From a virus: a stretch of DNA of 30,791 nucleotides. Under the pieces are notes generated by a model, which was not told where the DNA came from, ran no database searches, and worked only from the letters and a program-made list of their open reading frames with translations. Location: IMG/VR virus record IMGVR_UViG_3300045974_000129, positions 1 through 30,791 of that record. One strand, given 5' to 3'. The position numbers and the translations under genes are program-made. Of this stretch, positions 20,193-30,642 are shown in pieces (within the stretch, counting starts at the first letter, position 1; every line of letters starts with the position of its first letter).

Positions 20193-20289
20193 GAATCTTA
20201 TCGATTAATTTCGCTTTGGCTTTATCGACAGTCTCTGTCATTGGGATCGCGCGTTTTGATTCAGTCTTAAGGTGTTCTTTCTTGTTCAT
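20149..20289 (-). CDS. Possible 46-aa lysine-rich protein
   Basis: On the minus strand, an ATG at 20289 overlaps the end of the exonuclease gene and reads MNKKEHLKTESKRAIPMTET, then a Lys/Asp/Leu-rich helix (VDKAKAKLIDKILKDLKLKE), stopping at 20149. It fills the 74-nt gap between convergent genes and overlaps the plus-strand late gene by 44 nt. The ribosome binding site is weak (GGGAAAG about 14 nt upstream). The amphipathic composition looks protein-like, but chance is not excluded. Confidence 0.35.
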   Translation of the reverse strand: MNKKEHLKTESKRAIPMTETVDKAKAKLIDKILKDLKLKEDLQRKS

Positions 20290-21067
20290 CGAAGACTTCG
20301 ACTTTCCCGTCATTTGTTCTTACTCCAGTTCCTTGGAATTGAACTCTCTTGCCATATTCAAAAAGCTTGGATTCAACTTCGTTGATCTGAGTCTGAAGCG
20401 ACTCTCTTTCTTTTGCAAGCCGCTTCCACTCTTCTGCTGACTTGCGGGCAATTATTAAACGGTTCTTCTTGAAGTCGTCTTCAGACATCCCTGGAGGCAC
20501 GTTCTCTGTGACGCAGCGCCAAAACTCTGCGGCTACTTTTAGGTAGGTCTTGATGTACTCGAAGTCAGGCTTCACTTCGATTCGGATTCCTTCTCCCATG
20601 TGGTCTGGAACGTCTTTACCCATCCAATAAGAATAGTAATCGATGACTTCCGCGCCAGTCACAATGAACTGGTGCTGGAGCTGTGGCCAATACTTTTCTG
20701 GGATCTCTCCAGCTCGAGCCTTTTCATGGTCTGGTTTTCCAGGGCATTTGATCTCGAGGCCACGCTTTAATTTTGGATTCCATCCATCCATCGATGCTCG
20801 CATGTATGGGAGCGTTTCGTGCTGGCACGTAGCTGCTCCCATCTCGAAATCATACTCTAGTTCGTATTTTGCACGTGCAATTGGCTCGAGGCGATTGCCG
20901 CGTTCTGTCGCGAAGTTTCCGCCTTGTTCTTTAACGACTCGTCCTGTCTTTTCTTCCCACAAAACGAACGCGGTTTTCCACGGTGAGACATTCATTATGA
21001 TTGGCGCATCTGAGCCACCGATACCTTGCGCGCGCCACTTATGCCAGTTGTCTGAGCCTTGGTCCAT
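20267..21067 (-). CDS. YqaJ-family recombination exonuclease
   Basis: This would resect double-stranded DNA 5' to 3' for strand annealing, the role of lambda Exo. YqaJ landmarks (numbered from the ATG at 21067): GIGGSDAPIIMNVSPWK from about 15, E61 in GNRLEP, D94 in ASMDGW, E105-x-K107 in LEIKCPG, and QLQHQ at 129-133. The C-terminal third is helical (KSAEEWKRLAKERESLQTQI), usual in this family. AAGAGGA lies 7 nt before the ATG; a TTG at 21088 would extend it by 7 residues without a better signal. It is the only sizeable minus-strand gene and faces the ATPase/SSB block with which it probably works. Confidence 0.93.
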   Translation of the reverse strand: MDQGSDNWHKWRAQGIGGSDAPIIMNVSPWKTAFVLWEEKTGRVVKEQGGNFATERGNRLEPIARAKYELEYDFEMGAATCQHETLPYMRASMDGWNPKLKRGLEIKCPGKPDHEKARAGEIPEKYWPQLQHQFIVTGAEVIDYYSYWMGKDVPDHMGEGIRIEVKPDFEYIKTYLKVAAEFWRCVTENVPPGMSEDDFKKNRLIIARKSAEEWKRLAKERESLQTQINEVESKLFEYGKRVQFQGTGVRTNDGKVEVFDEQERTP

Positions 21068-21079
21068 TCTGGTTTCCTC

Positions 21080-21116
21080 TTGACTCAAGCTCTCACAAGG
21101 TTTAACAATGTTCTAC
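21080..21116 (+). promoter_or_regulatory. Divergent promoter/operator for regulator and exonuclease
   Basis: The 50 nt between exonuclease start and regulator start contains TTGACT at 21080-21085, and 17 nt later TAACAA (21103-21108) as a poor -10 candidate. AACAATGTTCTAC at 21104-21116 overlaps that -10 and recurs in inverse orientation at 22639-22651. Its core AACA-A-TGTT is an inverted repeat. A transcript from this promoter would begin at or near the regulator ATG. The operator reading is inference from the repeat and position. Confidence 0.5.
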
Positions 21117-21117
21117 T

Positions 21118-21309
21118 ATGAAATTGCTGAACGAATTAAAAAAATGGTTGAAGAAATCTGGTAACTCAGAAGCAAAGCTCGCTGTCGCACTAGGATACCG
21201 CGACGCCGCGCCGATTAAACAATGGGTTCGCAGAGGTCGGATTCCGACTTATCAGCAAGATCGCGTTACAGAAATCGTTACAAAAGGAGAATCCAATGAG
21301 TCTACTTGA
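21118..21309 (+). CDS. Cro-like helix-turn-helix regulator
   Basis: A 63-aa basic protein: LLNELKKWLKKSGNSEAKLA, then VALGYRDAAPIKQWVRRGRIP. The pattern of helix, SEAKLAVALGY, a turn, PIKQWVRRG and RIP is that of small Cro-type HTH proteins. It has no Shine-Dalgarno sequence; AAGG lies 17 nt upstream. An ATG at 21108 in another frame would encode only 18 codons. Start overlap with an operator suggests autoregulation. The gene overlaps the downstream ATPase gene by 14 nt. Confidence 0.7.
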   Translation: MKLLNELKKWLKKSGNSEAKLAVALGYRDAAPIKQWVRRGRIPTYQQDRVTEIVTKGESNEST

Positions 21310-22198
21310 TAGTGTCGTGAAGGGTAAAATCCAAACACCAGATCTGATCGTGATCTATGGTGTTGATGGTGTTGGTAAGTCTACGTTTGCAGCGCAAGCT
21401 CCAGACGTTATTTTCGTTGGATCAGAGAAGGGAACGGCCAATTTGGATGTCGCTCGTTTTCCTGGAGTGACTTCTTTGAATGACGTTCTTCTTGCTGTCA
21501 AAACACTTACGGAAGAAACACATGCGTACAAAACTCTCGCTATCGATTCACTTGATTGGTTGGAGCCTTTGGTGTGGGACACTGTATGCCGAGACTCCGG
21601 TGCTCCTAACATTGAGCAAGCCTATGGAGGTTACGGTAAGGGTTATGTGGCTGCTAATAAGCTTTGGATGGATCTCATGGCTCGTCTTACCGTTCTTCGA
21701 GAATCCAAAAAGATGAACATCGTTCTGATCGCACACGCTCAAGTGAAGGCGTTCAACGATCCACAGCAAAACGCAACCTACGATCGCTATCAGTTGAAGC
21801 TCAACGAAAAAGCGTCTGCTCTGTTTCGCGAGTACGTCGATTGCGTTCTATTCGCCAATTTTGAAGTGTACACGAAGCAAAACGACAAGAAGCGCACGAT
21901 CGCGATGGGTGATGGCACTCGTCTTATTTACACTGAGCGTCGTCCTGGCTATGACGCAAAGAATCGTCTTGGACTACCTTCTCAGCTACCTCTTGACTGG
22001 GCTGCGTACACGCAAGCAAAGCAGACTGGATCTCCAGAGAAGCCTGAAGTGGTCGCTGCGAATCTGAAAGAGTTAGTCGCTCAAGTCCCTGACGCGTCGC
22101 TTCGCACTAAAATCGAAGAAAGCATTACGAAGGCGGCTGGAGACTCTGCTAAACTAATGGTGATTCAAAACAAACTCAGAACACTTCTGAGTCAATGA
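21296..22198 (+). CDS. Sak4-like RecA-fold ATPase
   Basis: A 300-aa P-loop ATPase: Walker A GVDGVGKST at 22-30, Walker B TLAIDSLDWL around 80-89, then MNIVLIAHAQVKAF, the strand-loop typical of phage RecA-like AAA_24 proteins. Sak4 proteins of this type promote single-strand annealing and pair with phage SSBs and exonucleases. Those partners are present here (DUF669-like at 22671 and YqaJ at 20267). The ATG is preceded by AAAAGGAGAATCC. The C-terminal 60 residues are helical and lack landmarks. Confidence 0.85.
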   Translation: MSLLDSVVKGKIQTPDLIVIYGVDGVGKSTFAAQAPDVIFVGSEKGTANLDVARFPGVTSLNDVLLAVKTLTEETHAYKTLAIDSLDWLEPLVWDTVCRDSGAPNIEQAYGGYGKGYVAANKLWMDLMARLTVLRESKKMNIVLIAHAQVKAFNDPQQNATYDRYQLKLNEKASALFREYVDCVLFANFEVYTKQNDKKRTIAMGDGTRLIYTERRPGYDAKNRLGLPSQLPLDWAAYTQAKQTGSPEKPEVVAANLKELVAQVPDASLRTKIEESITKAAGDSAKLMVIQNKLRTLLSQ

Positions 22199-22670: not shown

Positions 22671-23177
22671 ATGGCAAAGTTACATAATCCAGGCTCGTAT
22701 CCAGCGAAAATCGTCGATTTCGGTATCATGAAGGGGAAGAATGGTCTCCCCTCTGCAGCAGTTATGTTTGAGTTCGCTCTTCCAGAAGGCGGAACTGATC
22801 GAATCACTTGGTTTGGATCTTTCAACGGTGGAGCGCGTGAATTCACGATCGAAGCTCTGATCCGAATGGGATTCACAGGTAAAAACGGATCTGAACTCAA
22901 TAAAGGCAACGGATCTGGAATTTTGGACCAGACAAAAGAATTCAGCATCGTTCTCAAGAACGACACCTATCAAGAAAAGACTCGCACCAAAGTTGCGTTC
23001 GTCAATCTTCCTGGTGGATCTGGATTCAGTGAAAAAATGCAAGACGGTGAAGCGTCTGTACTTATGGGTGGATTGAATCTTGAAGCGGATTTCATGCAAG
23101 CCCGTAAACATGTTGGCAAGGCAGCACCTGAGCCAGCAAAACAGCAAGCGATGTCAGAAGAAGACATGCCTTGGTGA
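22671..23177 (+). CDS. DUF669-like single-stranded DNA-binding protein
   Basis: The 168-aa protein opens AKLHNPGSYPAKIVDFGIMK and has a strand-rich middle (AAVMFEFALPEGGTDRITWF), consistent with OB-type binding. It ends AMSEEDMPW: the acidic, hydrophobic-tipped tail imitates the DDDIPF-type C-terminus by which bacterial SSBs recruit partners. AAGGAG precedes the ATG. Location after the Sak4-like ATPase and before a strong terminator suggests a recombination operon. Family call rests on these features and context. Confidence 0.8.
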   Translation: MAKLHNPGSYPAKIVDFGIMKGKNGLPSAAVMFEFALPEGGTDRITWFGSFNGGAREFTIEALIRMGFTGKNGSELNKGNGSGILDQTKEFSIVLKNDTYQEKTRTKVAFVNLPGGSGFSEKMQDGEASVLMGGLNLEADFMQARKHVGKAAPEPAKQQAMSEEDMPW

Positions 23178-23184
23178 GTAGTGC

Positions 23185-23220
23185 TCCCCGGTCAGATACT
23201 TTCTGATCGGGGATTTTTTT
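23185..23220 (+). terminator. Rho-independent terminator after SSB-like gene
   Basis: TCCCCGGTCAG (23185-23195) pairs with CTGATCGGGGA (23203-23213), an 11-bp stem with one G-U pair and a 7-nt ATACTTT loop, followed by seven Ts (23214-23220). It lies 7 nt after the SSB stop. It should end most transcripts of the recombination operon; the next gene starts at 23234 and would need read-through or its own promoter. Confidence 0.93.
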
Positions 23221-23233
23221 GGAGTTAAAAATC

Positions 23234-23701
23234 ATGAAAGCCTTTGTATTATTTTTCATACTACTACCATTTGCGGCGATGGCCGACATTTGCCAAGTGC
23301 ATTTGTCTCGAGCCACGCCCGACTCCAAGGAGTTGGTTGTGAGGGCTGGCGACATGCACGCTGGTTACCTCTATTACCGCATGGTCAATGAATCACTCGC
23401 GGTGGTGAATCTCGTGAGCATTCAAGATGAGTTCAAAGGCAGGGGATTCTCCAAAGCACTGTTCCACGGAATGCTTGCACTCAATCCAGAGATTAAACAA
23501 GTCGAGGCGATTTTAGTGGGTGATAATTTCAGCGCAACAAATCTTCGTGGAGTGAGGCACACAGTTACGCATGAACAATGCGAGGCAGCTTTCCGGAGAT
23601 CCCCATTTTATAAAGCGTGGGCGAGATTAGGATTTGGAATAGTAGGCATGTGTGAATTTCACCCGCACCTACAGGCTATTGAAGTTGAGGTGTTGAGATG
23701 A
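23234..23701 (+). CDS. Exported protein with GNAT-like acetyltransferase core
   Basis: The ATG at 23234 follows GGAG at 23221-23224; a TTG at 23219 lies within the terminator T-run and is unlikely. The 155-aa product begins with signal peptide MKAFVLFFILLPFAAMA. After about 50 residues, AVVNLVSIQDEFKGRGFSKAL followed by LFHGMLALNP matches GNAT motif A, in which a beta strand leads to R/Q-x-x-G-x-G and a helix for acetyl-CoA pyrophosphate. Later VEAILVGDNFSATN fits the next strand. Cysteines (CQVHL, EQCEA, MCEFH) suit an oxidising compartment. Acetyl-CoA is not expected outside the cytoplasm, so enzymatic activity is uncertain. Confidence 0.65.
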   Translation: MKAFVLFFILLPFAAMADICQVHLSRATPDSKELVVRAGDMHAGYLYYRMVNESLAVVNLVSIQDEFKGRGFSKALFHGMLALNPEIKQVEAILVGDNFSATNLRGVRHTVTHEQCEAAFRRSPFYKAWARLGFGIVGMCEFHPHLQAIEVEVLR

Positions 23702-24180
23702 GGGTCGATCTAGCCGTATACGGAAAGTTGAAAGAAGAGAATAAGAAGCTACGCAAGCAGCTTGAGATTGCGGTTAGCGACTATCAAGGCGCAATGAATT
23801 GCTGCGAAGAGCTCACCCTCCTCAAGTCCCAGCTTGCCGAGGCACTCAAGAATGAGCAGTCGAGTGCGAAGGCGTATGCGGAGTTGCAAAAGGAGCATGA
23901 GGGGCTTCGTTCTGACTTGTCAGAGGAACACAGGCTATATCTTGAACAGTTGAAATGGCACGCACAGAGAAATTCACAACTCGACGAGGCACTCAAGAGG
24001 AACGCGGTGCTGACTGAGGCGCTCCAAAGGCTTTACAACGAAAGCAATGGCACGATGCGGTGTCACCAAGCTGCTATCGGGTATGACTACGGAAATTCAA
24101 ACTGGGCAGCGTTAGAACATGCGTGGAATAAAGCCAAAGAAGCCCTGTCGGGCGAACCAACGAAGGCGGGGGTGGAGTGA
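23698..24180 (+). CDS. Coiled-coil protein ending in EPTKAG-type junction
   Basis: A 160-aa protein overlapping the previous gene (ATGA). Residues about 8-115 are a long Glu/Leu/Lys-rich coiled coil (GKLKEENKKLRKQLEI, AYAELQKEHEGLRSDLSEEH). The C-terminal part is a shorter conserved-looking domain (GYDYGNSNWAALEHAWNKAK) of a type common in phage early proteins. Its last nine codons read GEPTKAGVE and coincide with the first copy of a repeated gene-junction sequence that includes the next gene's start signal. Confidence 0.75.
   Translation: MRVDLAVYGKLKEENKKLRKQLEIAVSDYQGAMNCCEELTLLKSQLAEALKNEQSSAKAYAELQKEHEGLRSDLSEEHRLYLEQLKWHAQRNSQLDEALKRNAVLTEALQRLYNESNGTMRCHQAAIGYDYGNSNWAALEHAWNKAKEALSGEPTKAGVE
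24152..24174 (+). repeat. Gene-junction repeat, copy 1
   Basis: GCGAACCAAC-G-AAGGCGGGGGTG, coding EPTKAGV at the end of the coiled-coil gene. The GGCGGGGGTG part lies just before the GTG start (24177) of the next small gene and can serve as its ribosome binding site. Differs from copy 2 by one base. Confidence 0.85.
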
Positions 24181-24302
24181 CAATTATTATTCCAGAGTGG
24201 GTTTTGTGGGCGGTTGGCGTTCCTTTGGCGGGGGTAATTCTACTCTGTGTCATCGCAGCTTTTATTACATTATTCGATTGCGGTGTTGTTCATGACGACT
24301 AA
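24177..24302 (+). CDS. 41-aa single-pass membrane protein
   Basis: The GTG start overlaps the preceding stop (GTGA) and lies right after junction repeat copy 1. The peptide reads MTIIIPEWVLWAVGVPLAGV, then ILLCVIAAFITLFDCGVVHDD: one long hydrophobic segment with a short acidic end. Spacing and overlap make it a convincing small gene. The mini-ORF ATG at 24292 lies inside its last codons. Function unknown. Confidence 0.65.
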   Translation: MTIIIPEWVLWAVGVPLAGVILLCVIAAFITLFDCGVVHDD

Positions 24303-24336
24303 ATTCCAAAGCGAACCAACTAAGGCGGGGGTGTGA
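24292..24336 (+). CDS. 14-codon mini-ORF with EPTKAG end
   Basis: ATG at 24292 overlaps the end of the membrane-protein gene and encodes MTTKFQSEPTKAGV, stopping at 24334-24336, 1 nt before the next ATG. It spans junction repeat copy 2. The TTCCAAAGCGA part recurs at 25032-25042 at the start of another small gene. It could couple translation between neighbours or be the remnant of a gene whose middle was deleted; a functional peptide is not shown. Confidence 0.35.
   Translation: MTTKFQSEPTKAGV
24311..24333 (+). repeat. Gene-junction repeat, copy 2
   Basis: GCGAACCAAC-T-AAGGCGGGGGTG, identical to copy 1 except one base (G to T, still coding Thr). It directly precedes the RHH-like gene at 24338, with GGGGG six nt before its ATG. 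Confidence 0.85.
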
Positions 24337-24337
24337 G

Positions 24338-24541
24338 ATGAGCTGGACAGATAAACTGCCTCCACCGAAACCAACACAAAAGAAAATTAAGGCGGTAATG
24401 GTTCGGCCTGATCCCGCTGTTTGTGATTGGCTAGTTAGACAGTCAGAGGCTTACCAAGTAAGCGTTAATCAGATTTGTTGCGCGATATTATCCGAAGCAC
24501 ACCATCAGCACGTTGTAGAGTTTATGCGAGGCAAAGAATGA
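24338..24541 (+). CDS. Ribbon-helix-helix-like small protein
   Basis: A 67-aa protein with basic N-terminus (KLPPPKPTQKKIKAVMV), then a strand and two helices (DPAVCDWLVRQSEAYQVSVN, QICCAILSEAHHQ). The beta-alpha-alpha pattern with VMVRPDPAV and a Ser/Val/Asn turn resembles Arc/MetJ-type DNA-binding proteins. Start signal comes from junction repeat copy 2. Its stop overlaps the next mini-ORF start (ATGA). Assignment is structural inference only. Confidence 0.6.
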   Translation: MSWTDKLPPPKPTQKKIKAVMVRPDPAVCDWLVRQSEAYQVSVNQICCAILSEAHHQHVVEFMRGKE

Positions 24542-24573
24542 CCAACTTTGAACCAACGAAGGCGGGGGTGTGA
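24538..24573 (+). CDS. 11-codon mini-ORF with EPTKAG end
   Basis: ATG at 24538 overlaps the RHH-like gene's stop (ATGA) and encodes MTNFEPTKAGV, ending at TGA 24571-24573, whose A is the first base of the next ATG. It consists of almost nothing but the junction repeat. The continuous stop-start coupling suggests a translational relay between neighbours. Confidence 0.35.
   Translation: MTNFEPTKAGV
24550..24570 (+). repeat. Gene-junction repeat, copy 3
   Basis: GAACCAACGAAGGCGGGGGTG without the leading GC, otherwise identical to copy 1 over 21 nt. It carries the start signal for the gene at 24573. Confidence 0.85.
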
Positions 24574-24818
24574 TGTCTATAATCCAAGATCTTATTGACG
24601 AATCAAAAGCGTGGGCCGCTATAGGTGGGAAGCCAAGCGACGAAGAAATTAAAGTCCGGATGATGTCACTTGTAGAGTTCTTAGAACTGTTATCAACAAC
24701 AGATTTTAAATTTCGCTACGTTCCCGGTGATCTGAAAACAAAGGGGATAGAAATACGACACGAGATTTTAAAAGGATGGATTACTCGTTTAAAAGAACCA
24801 ACTAAGGCGGGAAGATAG
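24573..24818 (+). CDS. 81-aa unknown protein ending in EPTKAGR
   Basis: The ATG at 24573 is preferred; a GTG at 24570 in the same frame would add one residue. The protein is mostly helical (IIQDLIDESKAWAAIGG, VRMMSLVEFLELLSTTDF) with a short strand segment (KFRYVPGDL) and ends RLKEPTKAGR, using junction repeat copy 4 as its last codons. No known family. It sits in the row of small early genes separated by the same junction. Confidence 0.7.
   Translation: MSIIQDLIDESKAWAAIGGKPSDEEIKVRMMSLVEFLELLSTTDFKFRYVPGDLKTKGIEIRHEILKGWITRLKEPTKAGR
24795..24811 (+). repeat. Gene-junction repeat, copy 4 (shorter)
   Basis: GAACCAACTAAGGCGGG, matching copy 2 over 17 nt then diverging to AAGATAGGATGAG. It supplies AAGGCGGGAAG-type start-signal sequence ahead of ATG 24820. 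Confidence 0.8.
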
Positions 24819-24819
24819 G

Positions 24820-25026
24820 ATGAGTGACGAACGTATTTACGCTGGCAGTAATATGGGCGTGCTGATCACAGTTGGGTTCAATACTTCTGGAATAGATGCA
24901 GGAGAGTTAGACTTTGGATTGGCGTGTGCTCGCATCGAAGATTTAAACAAAGAGGATCGCGTGCGGTTGGTTCAAATATTAGATCGCGTTAAAACGAATT
25001 GTTACAATTTATGGGGTATCGAGTGA
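24820..25026 (+). CDS. 68-aa unknown early protein
   Basis: A small acidic protein (RIYAGSNMGVLITVGFNTSG, then EDLNKEDRVRLVQILDRVKT) combining two strands and two helices. It starts 1 nt after the previous stop and its own TGA overlaps the next GTG. No family recognised. Part of the tightly coupled small-gene row. Confidence 0.7.
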   Translation: MSDERIYAGSNMGVLITVGFNTSGIDAGELDFGLACARIEDLNKEDRVRLVQILDRVKTNCYNLWGIE

Positions 25027-25244
25027 ATACCTTCCAAAGCGACGCACGGGAGGCTGCGGAGAAGTACGCATCCAATTGCGGATTTGGATGCTGTAGAGAC
25101 GATAGGTCGGCGATGGCATTCAAGGATGGCGCAGAGTGGGGATCGAGAAGGATGATTGAGTTTCTAAAAGGTCATTACGCTTGGACAGGCACACCTGGAG
25201 AAATGGCCGACTATCTCGAAAGAATCTTGGAGAGTAAGGAATGA
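25023..25244 (+). CDS. 73-aa unknown early protein with FQS-type N-terminus
   Basis: I choose GTG at 25023, overlapping the previous stop (GTGA), with GGGG at 25013-25016; ATG at 25011 is an alternative without a start signal. The product begins MNTFQSDAREAAEKYASNCG and continues MAFKDGAEWGSRRMIEFLKG. Its N-terminus resembles the mini-ORF MTTKFQS, and TTCCAAAGCGA is identical in both. Helical, polar, with two close cysteines (GFGCCRDD). Function unknown. Confidence 0.68.
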   Translation: MNTFQSDAREAAEKYASNCGFGCCRDDRSAMAFKDGAEWGSRRMIEFLKGHYAWTGTPGEMADYLERILESKE

Positions 25245-25345
25245 TTTTATCGCTTATCGGATTAGCTACGGTGTGTTGGTTAATATCAGAAGTTTTAGTG
25301 CGATTATTGAAGTGGTTGGTTAACGCAATTTTGGATGAGGAATAG
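25241..25345 (+). CDS. 34-aa small membrane protein
   Basis: ATG at 25241 overlaps the previous stop (ATGA), preceded by GTAAGGA. It encodes MILSLIGLATVCWLISEVLV then RLLKWLVNAILDEE: one hydrophobic helix with an amphipathic end. The second small membrane peptide in this gene row. Its TAG is directly followed by structured RNA 2. Confidence 0.6.
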   Translation: MILSLIGLATVCWLISEVLVRLLKWLVNAILDEE

Positions 25346-25493
25346 TTTTGCTGCGAGCGACCCGAAAGGCCAGATGATTTAGGATGTATCCGCAAGGACT
25401 GCCTATAACCTCGCAGCGAATAAGGTGGGCTGGTGCCGACGAAAGAGCGTCGGGTTAAAGCGGTGACTCGTTACCGGCCAGTCCACCGATTTT
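25346..25493 (+). ncRNA. Structured RNA / 5' leader 2
   Basis: The 161-nt gap before the next gene has two domains. TTTGCTGCGAG (25347-25357) pairs with CTCGCAGCGAA (25410-25420), 11 bp with one G-U, enclosing CC-GAAA-GG and TCC-GCAA-GGA GNRA-type hairpins. Then GGTGGGCTGG (25424-25433) pairs with CCAGTCCACC (25478-25487), 10 bp with one G-U, enclosing CCGACG-AAAGAG-CGTCGG (25436-25453) and CGGT/ACCG (25461-25464/25473-25476): a three-way junction. The end, GATTTT then AAAAGGAGA, matches structured RNA 1. The pairings are visible directly; the class of RNA is not recognised. Confidence 0.55.
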
Positions 25494-25506
25494 AAAAGGA
25501 GAAGAA

Positions 25507-25701
25507 ATGAAAATCGAATTAGAAATTGACGAAGAAGAGATCAAGAAGGAGCTGGTTCAAATTATCGCGAGAAGTTTAAGCTACAAGATCGACTCCAAGA
25601 TTCAAGACAAAATCTTCGCATCCATCGATTGGTCGAAGATGGGTAGCCATGTGCAGGAAGCACTGCTCAAGATGGCCGCAGAGCAGTTGTTTAAAAGATG
25701 A
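25507..25701 (+). CDS. 64-aa unknown early protein
   Basis: Acidic, helical small protein (MKIELEIDEEEIKKELVQII, FASIDWSKMGSHVQEALLKM) with AAAAGGAGA upstream, just behind structured RNA 2. Its stop overlaps the next start (ATGA). No family recognised; expression may depend on the leader RNA. Confidence 0.7.
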   Translation: MKIELEIDEEEIKKELVQIIARSLSYKIDSKIQDKIFASIDWSKMGSHVQEALLKMAAEQLFKR

Positions 25702-25898
25702 GATCACGACTACAATTGGATACTGAGGTCTTCCCTCTCATCAAAAACAAGAATCGTGACGAGATTGTGAAGTTACTTCTGCAACGGTACAGAAAATCCT
25801 CATTTGAGAAACTTACTAACGATCAACTTGAAAATTTCATCAATTTTCTAAAGGAATCAAATGGCACTACGTCCCTATCAACAGGCAGCGATCGATGA
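25698..25898 (+). CDS. 66-aa unknown early protein
   Basis: A short basic-then-acidic protein (RSRLQLDTEVFPLIKNKN, KLTNDQLENFINFLKESNGT). Its start overlaps the previous stop (ATGA), and its last 38 nt overlap the helicase gene in a different frame, supporting translational coupling. Function unknown; a helical bundle is likely. Confidence 0.65.
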   Translation: MRSRLQLDTEVFPLIKNKNRDEIVKLLLQRYRKSSFEKLTNDQLENFINFLKESNGTTSLSTGSDR

Positions 25899-27339
25899 AA
25901 TCTCAAAGCACTACCGAAACGGAGTTAAGCGAGTTCTGCTCCACATGGCGACTGGAGGAGGAAAAACTGTTGTCTTCTCGCACGTTCTTACAAATTCGGG
26001 ATACAAAGGAAATCGCTGCATCATGGTCGTCCGTGGTCGCAAGCTTGTCAATCAAGCTTCGGCTAGACTCTTTCGAGAAGGAGTTCACCATGGAGTTTTG
26101 ATGAACGGTGCCTGGAACTACCGGCCAAATGCTCTTATTCAAATCTGCTCAATCGACACCCTCACAGCTAGAAAACTCAGACCAGACGCCAAGCTGATCG
26201 TAATCGACGAGGCGCACATGGCAACCTCCGACAGTTACGTCAAGTTTCTCGAGCAGTATCCAAACGCGTTCGTCCTGGCCGTCACCGCTACCCCTTACGT
26301 CGAAAAATCTTTGCGTCACATTGCAGACGAGATCGTGAAGCCAATCTCAATGCGAGAACTCATCGACACTGGATTTCTCGTCGATGCGCGCTACTTCGCG
26401 CCATCAAGCCCAGACTTGAGTGGAGTCAAAGTCTCTTCGTCAACACACGACTACGTTCAGAACGACTTAGCCAATGCGATGCAGAGCGGTACACTGGTGG
26501 GCGATCTCGTTCACCACTGGAAAAAACTCGGCGAAAATCGTCCGACTCTCTGCTTCGCTGCAACAATTGGACACTCCAAGAATATAGTGTCACAATTTAT
26601 GAATGCAGGAATATCAGCAGAGCACTGCGACGCAGACACGCCAGAAGCACAGCGTGAAGAAATTATCAAGAGACTCCAAGACGGGATTACGAAAGTCGTC
26701 AGCAATGTTGGGATATTTTGCACTGGTGTTGACATCCCTCCTGTGGGCTGCATCATCATGGCTCGTCCTACAAAATCGTACAACCTCTACATCCAGCAAG
26801 CCGGTCGAGGAACTCGTCCAGCCGATGGAAAATCAGACTTCATTATTTTGGATCATGCCGGAAACGTCAACGAGCACGGTTTCATCACCGAAGAGCCGCA
26901 AGCAAATCTTGATGGAACGAAAGTCGTTGGAGCAAAATCTCCAAAGACTTGTTCGCAATGTTACGCAGTTTTTATCGGATTTAAATGCCCTGCCTGTGGA
27001 TACACCAGACCAGCAGAAGACAGAGAATCCAAAGAACTAGTTGTTACTGACGGAGATCTTCAAGAGATCACCGAATCACCATTCGAGTCACAAGTTAAAA
27101 GGCGAATCAAAGGACTTGAAACGCTCCGAAAAGACCGTGGATTTAAAAAGGGTTGGGTCTACTACAGGATCGTAGAAGAATATGGGGAAGAAATTGCAAA
27201 CAGATTCATCAAAAAAAGAGTTGTCCCATCATGGATCAACAGAGGAGCACACAGCGTTAGTGAACGCGGTTCTAGTGTCTCTATCTCAGATGCCGAATAT
27301 TCGATGCTGGAAGTCACAAAAAGTGAGGATGCAGATTAG
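25861..27339 (+). CDS. DEAH-box (SF2) helicase with C-terminal zinc ribbon
   Basis: A 492-aa superfamily 2 helicase of the phage UvsW/type III restriction-like group. Motifs: Q-like RPYQQAAIDEI near the start, Walker A MATGGGKT at 29-36, DEAH at 116-119, TAT at 142-144 and motif VI QQAGRGTRP at 312-320. A zinc ribbon follows (C364, C367, C376, C379 in CSQCYAVF and CPACGYTRP). Likely roles are branch migration, fork restart or origin melting. The gene overlaps both its upstream neighbour and the VRR-NUC gene. Confidence 0.92.
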   Translation: MALRPYQQAAIDEISKHYRNGVKRVLLHMATGGGKTVVFSHVLTNSGYKGNRCIMVVRGRKLVNQASARLFREGVHHGVLMNGAWNYRPNALIQICSIDTLTARKLRPDAKLIVIDEAHMATSDSYVKFLEQYPNAFVLAVTATPYVEKSLRHIADEIVKPISMRELIDTGFLVDARYFAPSSPDLSGVKVSSSTHDYVQNDLANAMQSGTLVGDLVHHWKKLGENRPTLCFAATIGHSKNIVSQFMNAGISAEHCDADTPEAQREEIIKRLQDGITKVVSNVGIFCTGVDIPPVGCIIMARPTKSYNLYIQQAGRGTRPADGKSDFIILDHAGNVNEHGFITEEPQANLDGTKVVGAKSPKTCSQCYAVFIGFKCPACGYTRPAEDRESKELVVTDGDLQEITESPFESQVKRRIKGLETLRKDRGFKKGWVYYRIVEEYGEEIANRFIKKRVVPSWINRGAHSVSERGSSVSISDAEYSMLEVTKSEDAD

Positions 27340-27602: not shown

Positions 27603-27641
27603 AGCACAATGTTACTCATCACCTTTCATCGGGGGCGTTAC

Positions 27642-28484
27642 ATGTTACAAGTTCAAAAAGCGTTAGAAGCAGAAGGTTTTTATCCAGATCAGATTATCGC
27701 TGACGGTAAAATCCACAGATTTAAAAAAGATTCGTCCGACAAAGGCAAAAGTGCGTGGAGTATTTGCCACCAGAATCACTCCGACAAAGGTGAGGTGTTT
27801 TACGTCGCGATTTGGGGCGACTGGCACAATCCAGATCAAGAGTTCAAGTTCATCACGTCGTTTACTCAAACGAAGTACGATCGCAAAAAAATCGAAGACC
27901 AGCTCGAGAAGGCAGAGAAGGCTCGAAAAATCGAGCAAGAACGCGCGTGGCTCGCTACTTCGGAAGAATGCACCAAGAAGTGGGAAGAACTCTCCACTGA
28001 CCTAAAAGAAACCGAGTACTCAAAACGCAAGAAGCTGTCGTCACTCTTTGGATGCAAAACTCAGTTCGATGGCCACGGTCGTCCGATCTATGTCCCCGTG
28101 ATGGACATCAATGGTAAAATTTGGGGTCTGCAAAAAATTCAAGATGATGGACAGAAGTTCTTCATCCCTGGAACAAAAAAGAGCGGGAACTTTTACGTCG
28201 TTGGAGGAGATCTAAAGAATGAAGAAATCATATACATCGCTGAAGGATTTGCGACGGCGTGCTCTATTAGCATGGCTCTCGGTAAGCCTTGCGTGGCTGC
28301 TTTTGATGCTGGAAATCTCGCTCCAGTGGCGAAGGTATTACGCTCGAAGTTCAAAGAGGCGCGCTTCGTTATCTGCGGAGACGATGACACAGAAACAGAC
28401 GGAAACCCAGGAAGAACAGCCGCAGAAAAGGCAGCTAAAGATGTTCTTGGAAAAGCGGTATTTCCAAAGTTTTCGAGAAATTGA
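27642..28484 (+). CDS. Toprim-domain DNA primase (N-terminal part of split primase-helicase)
   Basis: I choose ATG at 27642, six nt after GGGGG; an upstream ATG at 27609 lacks such a signal. The 280-aa protein has an N-terminal part typical of phage primases (LEAEGFYPDQIIADGKIHRF), a helical linker (about 80-130), and a Toprim core: E201 in IIYIAEGFATA and D247/D249 in VICGDDD. It ends GKAVFPKFSRN at a stop abutting the HNH gene. Related primases continue past this point into a DFNDLH-type segment, which here begins the downstream helicase gene. Confidence 0.85.
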   Translation: MLQVQKALEAEGFYPDQIIADGKIHRFKKDSSDKGKSAWSICHQNHSDKGEVFYVAIWGDWHNPDQEFKFITSFTQTKYDRKKIEDQLEKAEKARKIEQERAWLATSEECTKKWEELSTDLKETEYSKRKKLSSLFGCKTQFDGHGRPIYVPVMDINGKIWGLQKIQDDGQKFFIPGTKKSGNFYVVGGDLKNEEIIYIAEGFATACSISMALGKPCVAAFDAGNLAPVAKVLRSKFKEARFVICGDDDTETDGNPGRTAAEKAAKDVLGKAVFPKFSRN

Positions 28485-28961
28485 ATGGAAAACTTTTTAT
28501 CAAAGATCGACAAGACTTCTTGTGGTTCTTGCTGGATTTGGACTGGCGCTAGAAATCAAGATGGATATGGGAAATATGCTGGATCGAGCAATTTTGACAC
28601 TACTTATGCTCATCGCATTTCTTTTGGTTTAGCGAATGGATTTCTGCCGCCCTATCCTGAGTTTGAACTAGATCACACATGTAGAAATCGCGCGTGCGTG
28701 AATCCATCTCATTTAGAGGTTAAGACGCACCATCAAAACGTGCTTATTGGGCATCTTGGTAAGACTGTGCGTGCTCGTCAAATCGCTAAAACTCATTGTC
28801 CATCTGGACATCCATATGACGAGAAAAACACGTACACAGCTCCATTAGTTTACAAACAAAACGGCAAATTTAAATCTTACGTTCCTAGTAGACACTGCAA
28901 AATTTGTAAGTTAGCGGCTCACAAAAGATGGCGAGCAAGAAAAAAGGCGTTACATGAATAA
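28485..28961 (+). CDS. HNH endonuclease, probable homing-type insertion
   Basis: The 158-aa protein is a free-standing HNH nuclease: SCWIWTGARNQDGYGKY, then LDHTCRNRACVNPSHLEV with D63-H64, N73 and H76 forming the HNH core. A C-terminal region (CPSGHP, RHCKICK) may bind zinc or DNA. The gene abuts the primase stop and overlaps the helicase start by 8 nt, with a 5-bp direct repeat TGAAT at each end (28482-28486 and 28955-28959). No space exists for an intron core. Confidence 0.9.
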   Translation: MENFLSKIDKTSCGSCWIWTGARNQDGYGKYAGSSNFDTTYAHRISFGLANGFLPPYPEFELDHTCRNRACVNPSHLEVKTHHQNVLIGHLGKTVRARQIAKTHCPSGHPYDEKNTYTAPLVYKQNGKFKSYVPSRHCKICKLAAHKRWRARKKALHE

Positions 28962-30642
28962 GTTAAGCGATTGGAACGATCTTCATTGTCTGGAAGGTCT
29001 TGAAGTAGTCCGTAATCAGATCGCAGGAATCCAGCCCGAAGTGAGTCGTGTCATTCCACTTGGATATTACGAGGACACTTTTTACTACATCACGAGTTCA
29101 AACCGGCAGATCATCCCAGTGCTTTCTGCTTCTCACGTCGAGACAAAATTCCTAAGCATGATGCCGATGCGTTATTGGGAGTCTCAATACCCTGGCAAAA
29201 TCGGACCAGACTACAAAAAAGCCACTGGTGAACTCATGGACGCGTGCAGATCTGCTGGCGTGTTCAAGCCGCGTCGCATTCGTGGCGGTGGCGTTTGGTT
29301 TGAAGAAAAGCATGGCGTCGTCGTAAATCTCGGAAAGAGTCTTTACGTTGGTGGCAAGAACGCGGAGCTGAACAGCTTCAAATCGAAATACACTTACACG
29401 ATCGCGCCAGACAACGAGATCCACGAAAATCCATTGACGGTTGACGAATGCGCGCCGCTCATTACGATTTTGGATTCTCTTCGATGGAAAAAGCCAGAGT
29501 TCTCAAAGTTCTTAGCTGGCTGGCTCATCGCTGCGCCACTTTGTGGGATGCTCCCATGGCGACCACACGTTTGGCTCTTAGGACCTCCTGGCTCTGGAAA
29601 GTCATGGATCATGGAGCATCTGGTGGCCATTTTGTTTGGCGAGAACAAGACTTACGTCCAAGGCTCGACTTCTGAGGCTGGAATCCGTCAAAGCATTGGC
29701 AGTGACGCCATGCCTGTCATTTTCGACGAGTTCGAGACAGATGACCAAAAATCAAGCGATCGCGTCAGATCTATTCTTGAATTGATTCGTCAGGCTTCAT
29801 CTGAGTCTGAGGGTTCTGTCGTGAAGGGGTCGGCTGGCGGAAAATCCATTCAATTTCAAGTCAGGTTCTCTGCGATGGTCGCTTCCGTTCGTTTGAACCT
29901 CGAGCGTGAGCAGGATCGCACTCGGTTCACGATCTTGGAGCTTCTACGTCCAGATGGTGACGAGACAAAGCAGTTTAGAGAGCTTCAGGAGGCTATTGCG
30001 AAGCTCCCGCCAGATTTCGGAGCTAGACTCTTCTCAAGGTCCGTTCGCATGGCTCAAGTCATCCTGGCTAACCAGAAGCTATTCCATGTGGCTTTGTCGG
30101 AACGGTACAACGCAAGGTTTGGTCAGCAGTACGGGACGTTGCTCGCTGGATATGCCTCTCTCATCTCTGACTTCGTTTTAGGTCCAGAGGAGATCGATGG
30201 CATCATTGATTCGATTGACCTCAGTGAAGAGAGCGAGATCATCAATGAGCGCGATGAAGGAGACTGCCTTGAGTTTGTGATGCAGAAAATTATTAAAGGC
30301 GTGGATCTATTCCAGGGTGGCAAGGTCGATCGGTCAGTTCGAGAGCTTGTGATGATGGCGATGGAGAAATCCGAAGAACGAAACACGCTTTCTAGATACG
30401 GATTTAAGTTCATCGAAAAAGACCAAGTGTTGTTCGTCGCCAATAAGCATCCAGAATTGTCAGCTTTGTTTGCTGGTACAAAATGGTTGTCCGGTTGGAG
30501 AAAAGCTCTTGGCGGGATCGATGGTGCAAAACCTTCAAAAGATCCAATTTGGATGAATGGAATGCCAACTAGAGGCATCTTAATCCCGATCGATAAAGTC
30601 GCGCATTCGCCTTGGAAGACCAAAAATCCTTACAAAGCGTAA
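28954..30642 (+). CDS. Replicative P-loop helicase (C-terminal part of split primase-helicase)
   Basis: A 562-aa protein with Walker A GPPGSGKS at 210-217 and Walker B VIFDEF at 255-260, in the style of primase-linked SF3/DUF927-type helicases. Arg candidates lie downstream (REQDRTRFTIL). The first 25 residues, LSDWNDLHCLEGLEVVRNQI, look like the missing end of a Toprim primase (DFNDLH..GLE.VR.QI), so start codon and preceding stop seem to be supplied by the HNH insertion. It is the last complete gene of the window. Confidence 0.85.
   Translation: MNKLSDWNDLHCLEGLEVVRNQIAGIQPEVSRVIPLGYYEDTFYYITSSNRQIIPVLSASHVETKFLSMMPMRYWESQYPGKIGPDYKKATGELMDACRSAGVFKPRRIRGGGVWFEEKHGVVVNLGKSLYVGGKNAELNSFKSKYTYTIAPDNEIHENPLTVDECAPLITILDSLRWKKPEFSKFLAGWLIAAPLCGMLPWRPHVWLLGPPGSGKSWIMEHLVAILFGENKTYVQGSTSEAGIRQSIGSDAMPVIFDEFETDDQKSSDRVRSILELIRQASSESEGSVVKGSAGGKSIQFQVRFSAMVASVRLNLEREQDRTRFTILELLRPDGDETKQFRELQEAIAKLPPDFGARLFSRSVRMAQVILANQKLFHVALSERYNARFGQQYGTLLAGYASLISDFVLGPEEIDGIIDSIDLSEESEIINERDEGDCLEFVMQKIIKGVDLFQGGKVDRSVRELVMMAMEKSEERNTLSRYGFKFIEKDQVLFVANKHPELSALFAGTKWLSGWRKALGGIDGAKPSKDPIWMNGMPTRGILIPIDKVAHSPWKTKNPYKA

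Follow-up and report, generated by a model that had tools for sequence, protein, structure and literature searches.

A short repeat linking gene ends to ribosome sites at four junctions in an accessory row of small phage genes

A short repeat stands at four successive gene junctions in a row of small phage genes, where it carries the codons for EPTKAG together with the start signal of the next gene. The repeat fits best as a local variant, in which a gene-end and ribosome-site module has been copied within one accessory row, and we consider it probable that the copies reached successive boundaries as small genes were gained and lost. The turnover of small genes is already known in phages, and the repeat looks like a modest local case of it. 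What is said about how phages keep expression intact while small accessory genes come and go still rests mostly on inference, and gene-end codons joined to the next ribosome site, in one frame and at four boundaries, make a concrete, small and testable case, in which all crossover products between copies are predicted to stay expressible. Even if the repeat is merely an unexchanged scar, it would still be a usable marker of earlier insertions of small genes in the phages of predatory bacteria, which have been sampled poorly.

The repeat, its start signals and its reading frame

Within the window, i.e. the whole 30.8-kb stretch of DNA analysed, the core GAACCAAC(G/T)AAGGCGGG occurs four times, always on the plus strand and always at a gene junction (Table 1), as in the original prediction of four near-identical copies of 17-23 nt at successive gene junctions. 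The module is also written GAACCAACKAAGGCGGGGGTG, and matches to GAACCAACKAAGGCGGG lie at 24154-24170, 24313-24329, 24550-24566 and 24795-24811. Two of the copy starts given earlier, 24550 and 24795, agree with these positions, whereas the other two, 24152 and 24311, take in a GC that is common to copies 1 and 2 and precedes the core. No fifth copy of the core was found in the window, even with three mismatches allowed; a chance origin is ruled out, since 0.05 copies are expected and four were reached in no shuffle. All four copies fall within 660 nt, at spacings of 159-245 nt. The longest exact identity is 21 nt between copies 1 and 3 and 17 nt between copies 2 and 4, copies 2 and 3 have 15 nt, AAGGCGGGGGTGTGA, exactly in common, and from copy 1 to copy 4 the allele switches between G and T at each step. 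Likeness among the copies is limited to 17-23 nt: over 40 nt on the upstream side of the core and 60 nt on its downstream side, similarity between copies is at shuffle level (lowest 0.067), and the small proteins encoded between copies are not paralogous apart from the EPTKAG residues. Since similarity stops at the core and the intervening proteins are unrelated, the repeat is a short module between unrelated genes, which rules out a row of duplicated genes and, with it, the tandem duplication of entire gene units.

A start codon follows just after each copy. The purine-rich start signal that had been described at the end of every copy is present, as the extension GGGGGTG, in copies 1-3 but not in copy 4, which reads GGGAAGATAGG. 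Pairing predicted against a generic bacterial 16S 3' end, not that of a named host, is -12.5 to -13.3 kcal/mol for copies 1-3, compared with -8.6 kcal/mol for copy 4 and -2.3 to -9.5 kcal/mol for the other 33 main starts listed. Copies 1-3 are the strongest predicted Shine-Dalgarno pairings among the starts examined, and copy 4 is ordinary. The 5' half of the core, GAACCAACKAA, is identical among the copies and does not pair with the ribosome, so that selection on the ribosome site alone is insufficient to explain the identity. Local RNA structure at the copies shows no excess and no stem-loop, which rules out RNA hairpins as the basis of the repeat, and sigma-70 promoters are ruled out because no sigma-70-like site was seen there.

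The upstream frame had been said to end in EPTKAG in every copy. This is the case for a long ORF at copies 1 and 4, which end in SGEPTKAGVE and RLKEPTKAGR, respectively, before the stop; at copies 2 and 3, however, the upstream genes (24177-24302 and 24338-24541) are read in other frames and reach their stops ahead of the repeat, which leaves EPTKAG to micro-ORFs alone, 14 and 11 residues long, each with an ATG that overlaps the 3' end of the preceding gene. The chance of an in-frame ATG so near is about 0.10 at copy 2 and about 0.06 at copy 3; the two micro-ORFs together, spotted after the fact, are mildly suggestive and not proof of translation. The sole difference in the core, ACG or ACT, is silent in this frame as claimed, both codons specifying Thr. 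No other EPTKAG-tailed protein was found among the relatives, and in viral contigs the second match to a degenerate pattern of EPTKAGV plus stop (contig L009) is a single unrelated occurrence.

Table 1. Coordinates of the repeat copies and of associated genes in the window
Feature	Coordinates	Strand	Remark
Copy 1 (G allele), GAACCAACGAAGGCGGGGGTG	24154..24174	+	end of ORF 23698-24180; Shine-Dalgarno of GTG 24177
Copy 2 (T allele), GAACCAACTAAGGCGGGGGTGTGA	24313..24336	+	micro-ORF end; Shine-Dalgarno of ATG 24338
Copy 3 (G allele), GAACCAACGAAGGCGGGGGTGTGA	24550..24573	+	micro-ORF end; Shine-Dalgarno of ATG 24573
Copy 4 (T allele), GAACCAACTAAGGCGGG	24795..24811	+	end of ORF 24570-24818; without GGGGGTG; ordinary signal for ATG 24820
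Micro-ORF, MTTKFQSEPTKAGV plus stop (14 residues)	24292..24336	+	predicted; begins inside end of 24177-24302
Micro-ORF, MTNFEPTKAGV plus stop (11 residues)	24538..24573	+	predicted; ATGA overlap with stop of 24338-24541
Accessory row of small genes holding the repeats	23178..25860	+	between gene 22671-23177 and helicase 25861-27339
160-aa coiled-coil-rich protein, natural carrier of EPTKAG tail	23698..24180	+	
41-aa hydrophobic protein	24177..24302	+	GTG start overlaps stop of 23698-24180
67-aa protein, ribbon-helix-helix-like by eye	24338..24541	+	Pfam BrnA_antitoxin E 0.1, below cut-off
82-aa protein	24570..24818	+	start GTG 24570 or ATG 24573; distant homolog in L107
68-aa protein without known relatives	24820..25026	+	downstream of copy 4
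Sak4-like single-strand annealing protein	21296..22198	+	candidate recombinase for short-homology exchange; phrog_124, E 3e-47
RecE-like recombination exonuclease	20267..21088	-	phrog_434, E 1e-47

The accessory row and its relatives

From its sequence, we assign the window to a myovirus that has Bdellovibrio phage phi1422 as a relative, and the host is probably a Bdellovibrio-like bacterium. The helicase beside the row and its phi1422 counterpart are 48% identical, and the window also encodes a tail sheath, a baseplate wedge protein and a split primase, as well as the Sak4-like annealing protein and the RecE-like exonuclease, whose genes lie 2-4 kb upstream of the repeats. The primase appears as if split around a homing-type endonuclease (27609-30642): two separate ORFs, 27609-28484 and 28954-30642, match the primase family phrog_35358, and the ORF that lies between them, at 28485-28961, encodes an HNH endonuclease.

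Among the relatives, which were collected via the helicase, the stretch that separates the gene 22671 homolog from the helicase measures 8-231 nt in six (L108, L103, L013, L114, L112 and L111) and holds 753-7147 nt of other genes in four (L110, L107, L104 and L113); in the window it is 2683 nt. With the row missing or replaced in ten relatives, we regard it as accessory. The gene-content breakpoints that can be seen coincide with the two ends of the row, at 23177 and 25861, and not with the copies, where they had been proposed to fall. The same gene row was found in no relative, and no relative or strain was found with genes swapped at these junctions. In the phage collections searched the repeat was absent except from one further contig, which has all four copies and does not differ from the window at any of the 13,859 bases compared. 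Three contigs (L005, L006 and L008) have one exact 17-mer each, in single copy and in unrelated context. Near and distant nucleotide searches of the phage collection and a distant search of plasmids gave no useful match, tblastn of the small proteins in phages returned nothing, and only the identical contig was retrieved from the viral contigs, whether with the small proteins joined end to end or with an alignment that included the L107 homolog. A helicase search of genome contigs returned helicases from many phyla, with no close prophage relative among them.

The row starts behind a likely terminator, a terminator-like hairpin of 12 pairs with a run of 7 T (23185-23213) directly 3' of gene 22671-23177. 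Sequence searches of phages, viral contigs and relatives found no homolog of the 23698-24180 product, and the 24177-24302 product probably has one membrane span, as predicted from its residues. Using a more sensitive search of the relatives, the 24570 product was the only one of the row for which a relative was found, an L107 ORF (phmmer E 2e-6) that sits in a different place, right of the helicase. Local similarity between the two ends one residue before EPTKAG. This break is only suggestive: it falls at a protein end, where similarity often fades, a few matches persist in the tail in a global alignment, and in L107 the end of the ORF runs into the start of a further gene. An intergenic stretch, 25346-25490, separates the small-gene row from ORF 25507 and folds well as RNA, with two long stems (-59.2 kcal/mol, z -3.3); it matched no Rfam family, and nhmmer found nothing similar in the relatives.

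Origin of the copies and competing explanations

In the account that we favor, the module would comprise EPTKAG and the stop of one gene, followed by a strong Shine-Dalgarno sequence for the next. A single original junction, in the simplest case the one at gene 23698, where the tail ends a full ORF, would have been copied to later boundaries, while unrelated small genes were gained and lost in the accessory row of a phi1422-like myovirus. Copying may have proceeded by short-homology or illegitimate recombination, through the phage Sak4/RecE pair or host enzymes, and rare events of either kind would be enough to produce the pattern. At present, the module would serve to start translation of the next small gene exactly where the previous frame stops, the micro-ORFs at copies 2 and 3 occupying the space between the previous gene and the next start. 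Which junction was copied into which, the coupling of translation between neighbouring genes and any lasting role as a seam for exchange are inferences. It is a long shot that the module, each copy together with its micro-ORF in the case of copies 2 and 3, forms a self-contained translational relay that passes ribosomes from gene to gene; if it did, any small gene dropped between two copies would be expressed at once, and the row would be a ready-made slot for new genes.

Whether the copies are still in use during phage growth to delete, gain and shuffle small genes, as the recombination seam of the original prediction implies, is a separate matter, and we think it rather unlikely. Crossovers made in silico between all six pairs of copies preserved the EPTKAG tail, the stop and the next start to within -1 to +1 nt, so that the idea is mechanically workable, and the accessory nature of the row, the annealing protein and exonuclease of the phage, and the alternating G/T alleles, which are compatible with past exchange, all speak for it. 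Crossover compatibility is nevertheless no evidence that exchange occurs. With the same row absent from relatives, exchange at the copies is unproven; variants were not found, the sole other contig being identical, and the 17-21 nt of exact identity between copies are below the reported minimal pairing segments of Red-beta (23-27 bp) and RecA (31-34 bp) (PMC3945230). Sak4 belongs to the RecA/Rad51 group, and in a staphylococcal phage the recombinase is required for replication (PMC5499656). Two known systems come close to such a seam. The short conserved boundary sequences proposed for the mosaicism of lambdoid phages, as cited in PMC3029335, are similar in that a brief match where two genes meet could splice modules together and leave the genes whole; they are described there as common to different phages, whereas our copies lie at the gene boundaries of one genome, with no partner phage known, and in the collections searched are not shared between phages at gene-content breakpoints. 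The PeSL cassettes of T4-like phages (Arbiol 2010, Comeau 2014; cited in PMC4503421) are likewise repeated elements at non-structural junctions with a suggested part in small-gene shuffling, but according to that citation they consist of a promoter and a stem-loop terminator, and neither an early promoter nor a terminator of this kind is present at the copies.

The copies could instead be kept as 17-23 nt elements for a protein or RNA that acts on co-regulated starts, in the manner of the start-associated sequences (SAS) of Cluster K mycobacteriophages, the parallel drawn originally; this we hold to be distinctly unlikely. As an analogy the parallel is a fair one: like SAS and ESAS, the repeat is short and asymmetric, stands directly before the starts of non-structural genes in a single orientation, and combines a Shine-Dalgarno core, with strong ribosome pairing at copies 1-3, with conserved bases that do not pair. 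Membership fails on sequence, copy number and conservation. SAS consist of 13 nt, GGGATAGGAGCCC, in 11-19 copies over half a genome, are conserved between phages and mostly follow gaps of >50 bp (PMC3203893), whereas here a different sequence has four copies, confined to overlapping gene ends of one virus and not found in its relatives, and GGGATAGGAGCCC has no match in the window with up to two mismatches. The lack of local RNA structure also counts against such an element. In our comparison, the repeat resembles SAS and the lambdoid boundary sequences in its working, yet lacks defining features of both. Selection on the peptide, with EPTKAG as a C-terminal tag (e.g. a degradation or interaction signal) on several small proteins, is very improbable. 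It would fit the one frame in all copies, the silent core change and the micro-ORFs that are somewhat unlikely by chance; against it, two of the four copies are unattached to a gene product, a single silent change is no test of selection, and no other protein in the relatives has the same tail. Least of all do we expect repeated promoters of a phage RNA polymerase, as in T7, whose directional repeats of about 20 nt at consecutive gene junctions are similar in length and can be promoters. T7 promoters are found genome-wide and outside coding ends, whereas our copies are packed into one short row and overlap both coding ends and a ribosome site; they lack a sigma-70-like site, and no phage polymerase gene was seen in the window, which is part of a genome.

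Junction repeats in relatives and control phages

Gene ends were scanned for stretches in common, with a minimum length of 17 nt and no more than one mismatch. The scan gave six hits in the window, corresponding to the four copies, and 0 in random windows of it. Neither phi1422 nor any of 16 relative contigs exceeded three hits, and none had a four-copy junction family. Lambda, P22 and HK97 gave none, and in T7 the same scan picked up its promoters at ten junctions. The 13-nt SAS of TM4 is under the length limit, and TM4 is therefore not a positive control.

The contig with the closest helicase (L102, 54%) has its own, different 27-nt junction repeat at 88-115 and 662-689. This direct repeat, ACTGGAGTCGAGTGATGAGTGAGCCGA, comprises a gene end and a gene start and flanks one 168-aa ORF with a DPPY motif, its first copy leading only into a short ORF; a second repeat in L102 is a 17-nt pair at 1000 and 1243. 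A pair in L113 is better explained by two paralogous genes with a common C-terminal helix, and was therefore not counted as a parallel. In L106, 545-2900, dense short repeats of the GCTCCAACTCC type are interleaved with TTCGGTTTTCGATATTG-type copies beside small genes of the minus strand. In L110, two divergent copies of a homolog of small gene 21118 (19-208 and 815-919) have an identical 20-nt AGGAAGGATTGTAGATGGGA on opposite strands, which is possibly an operator or start region.
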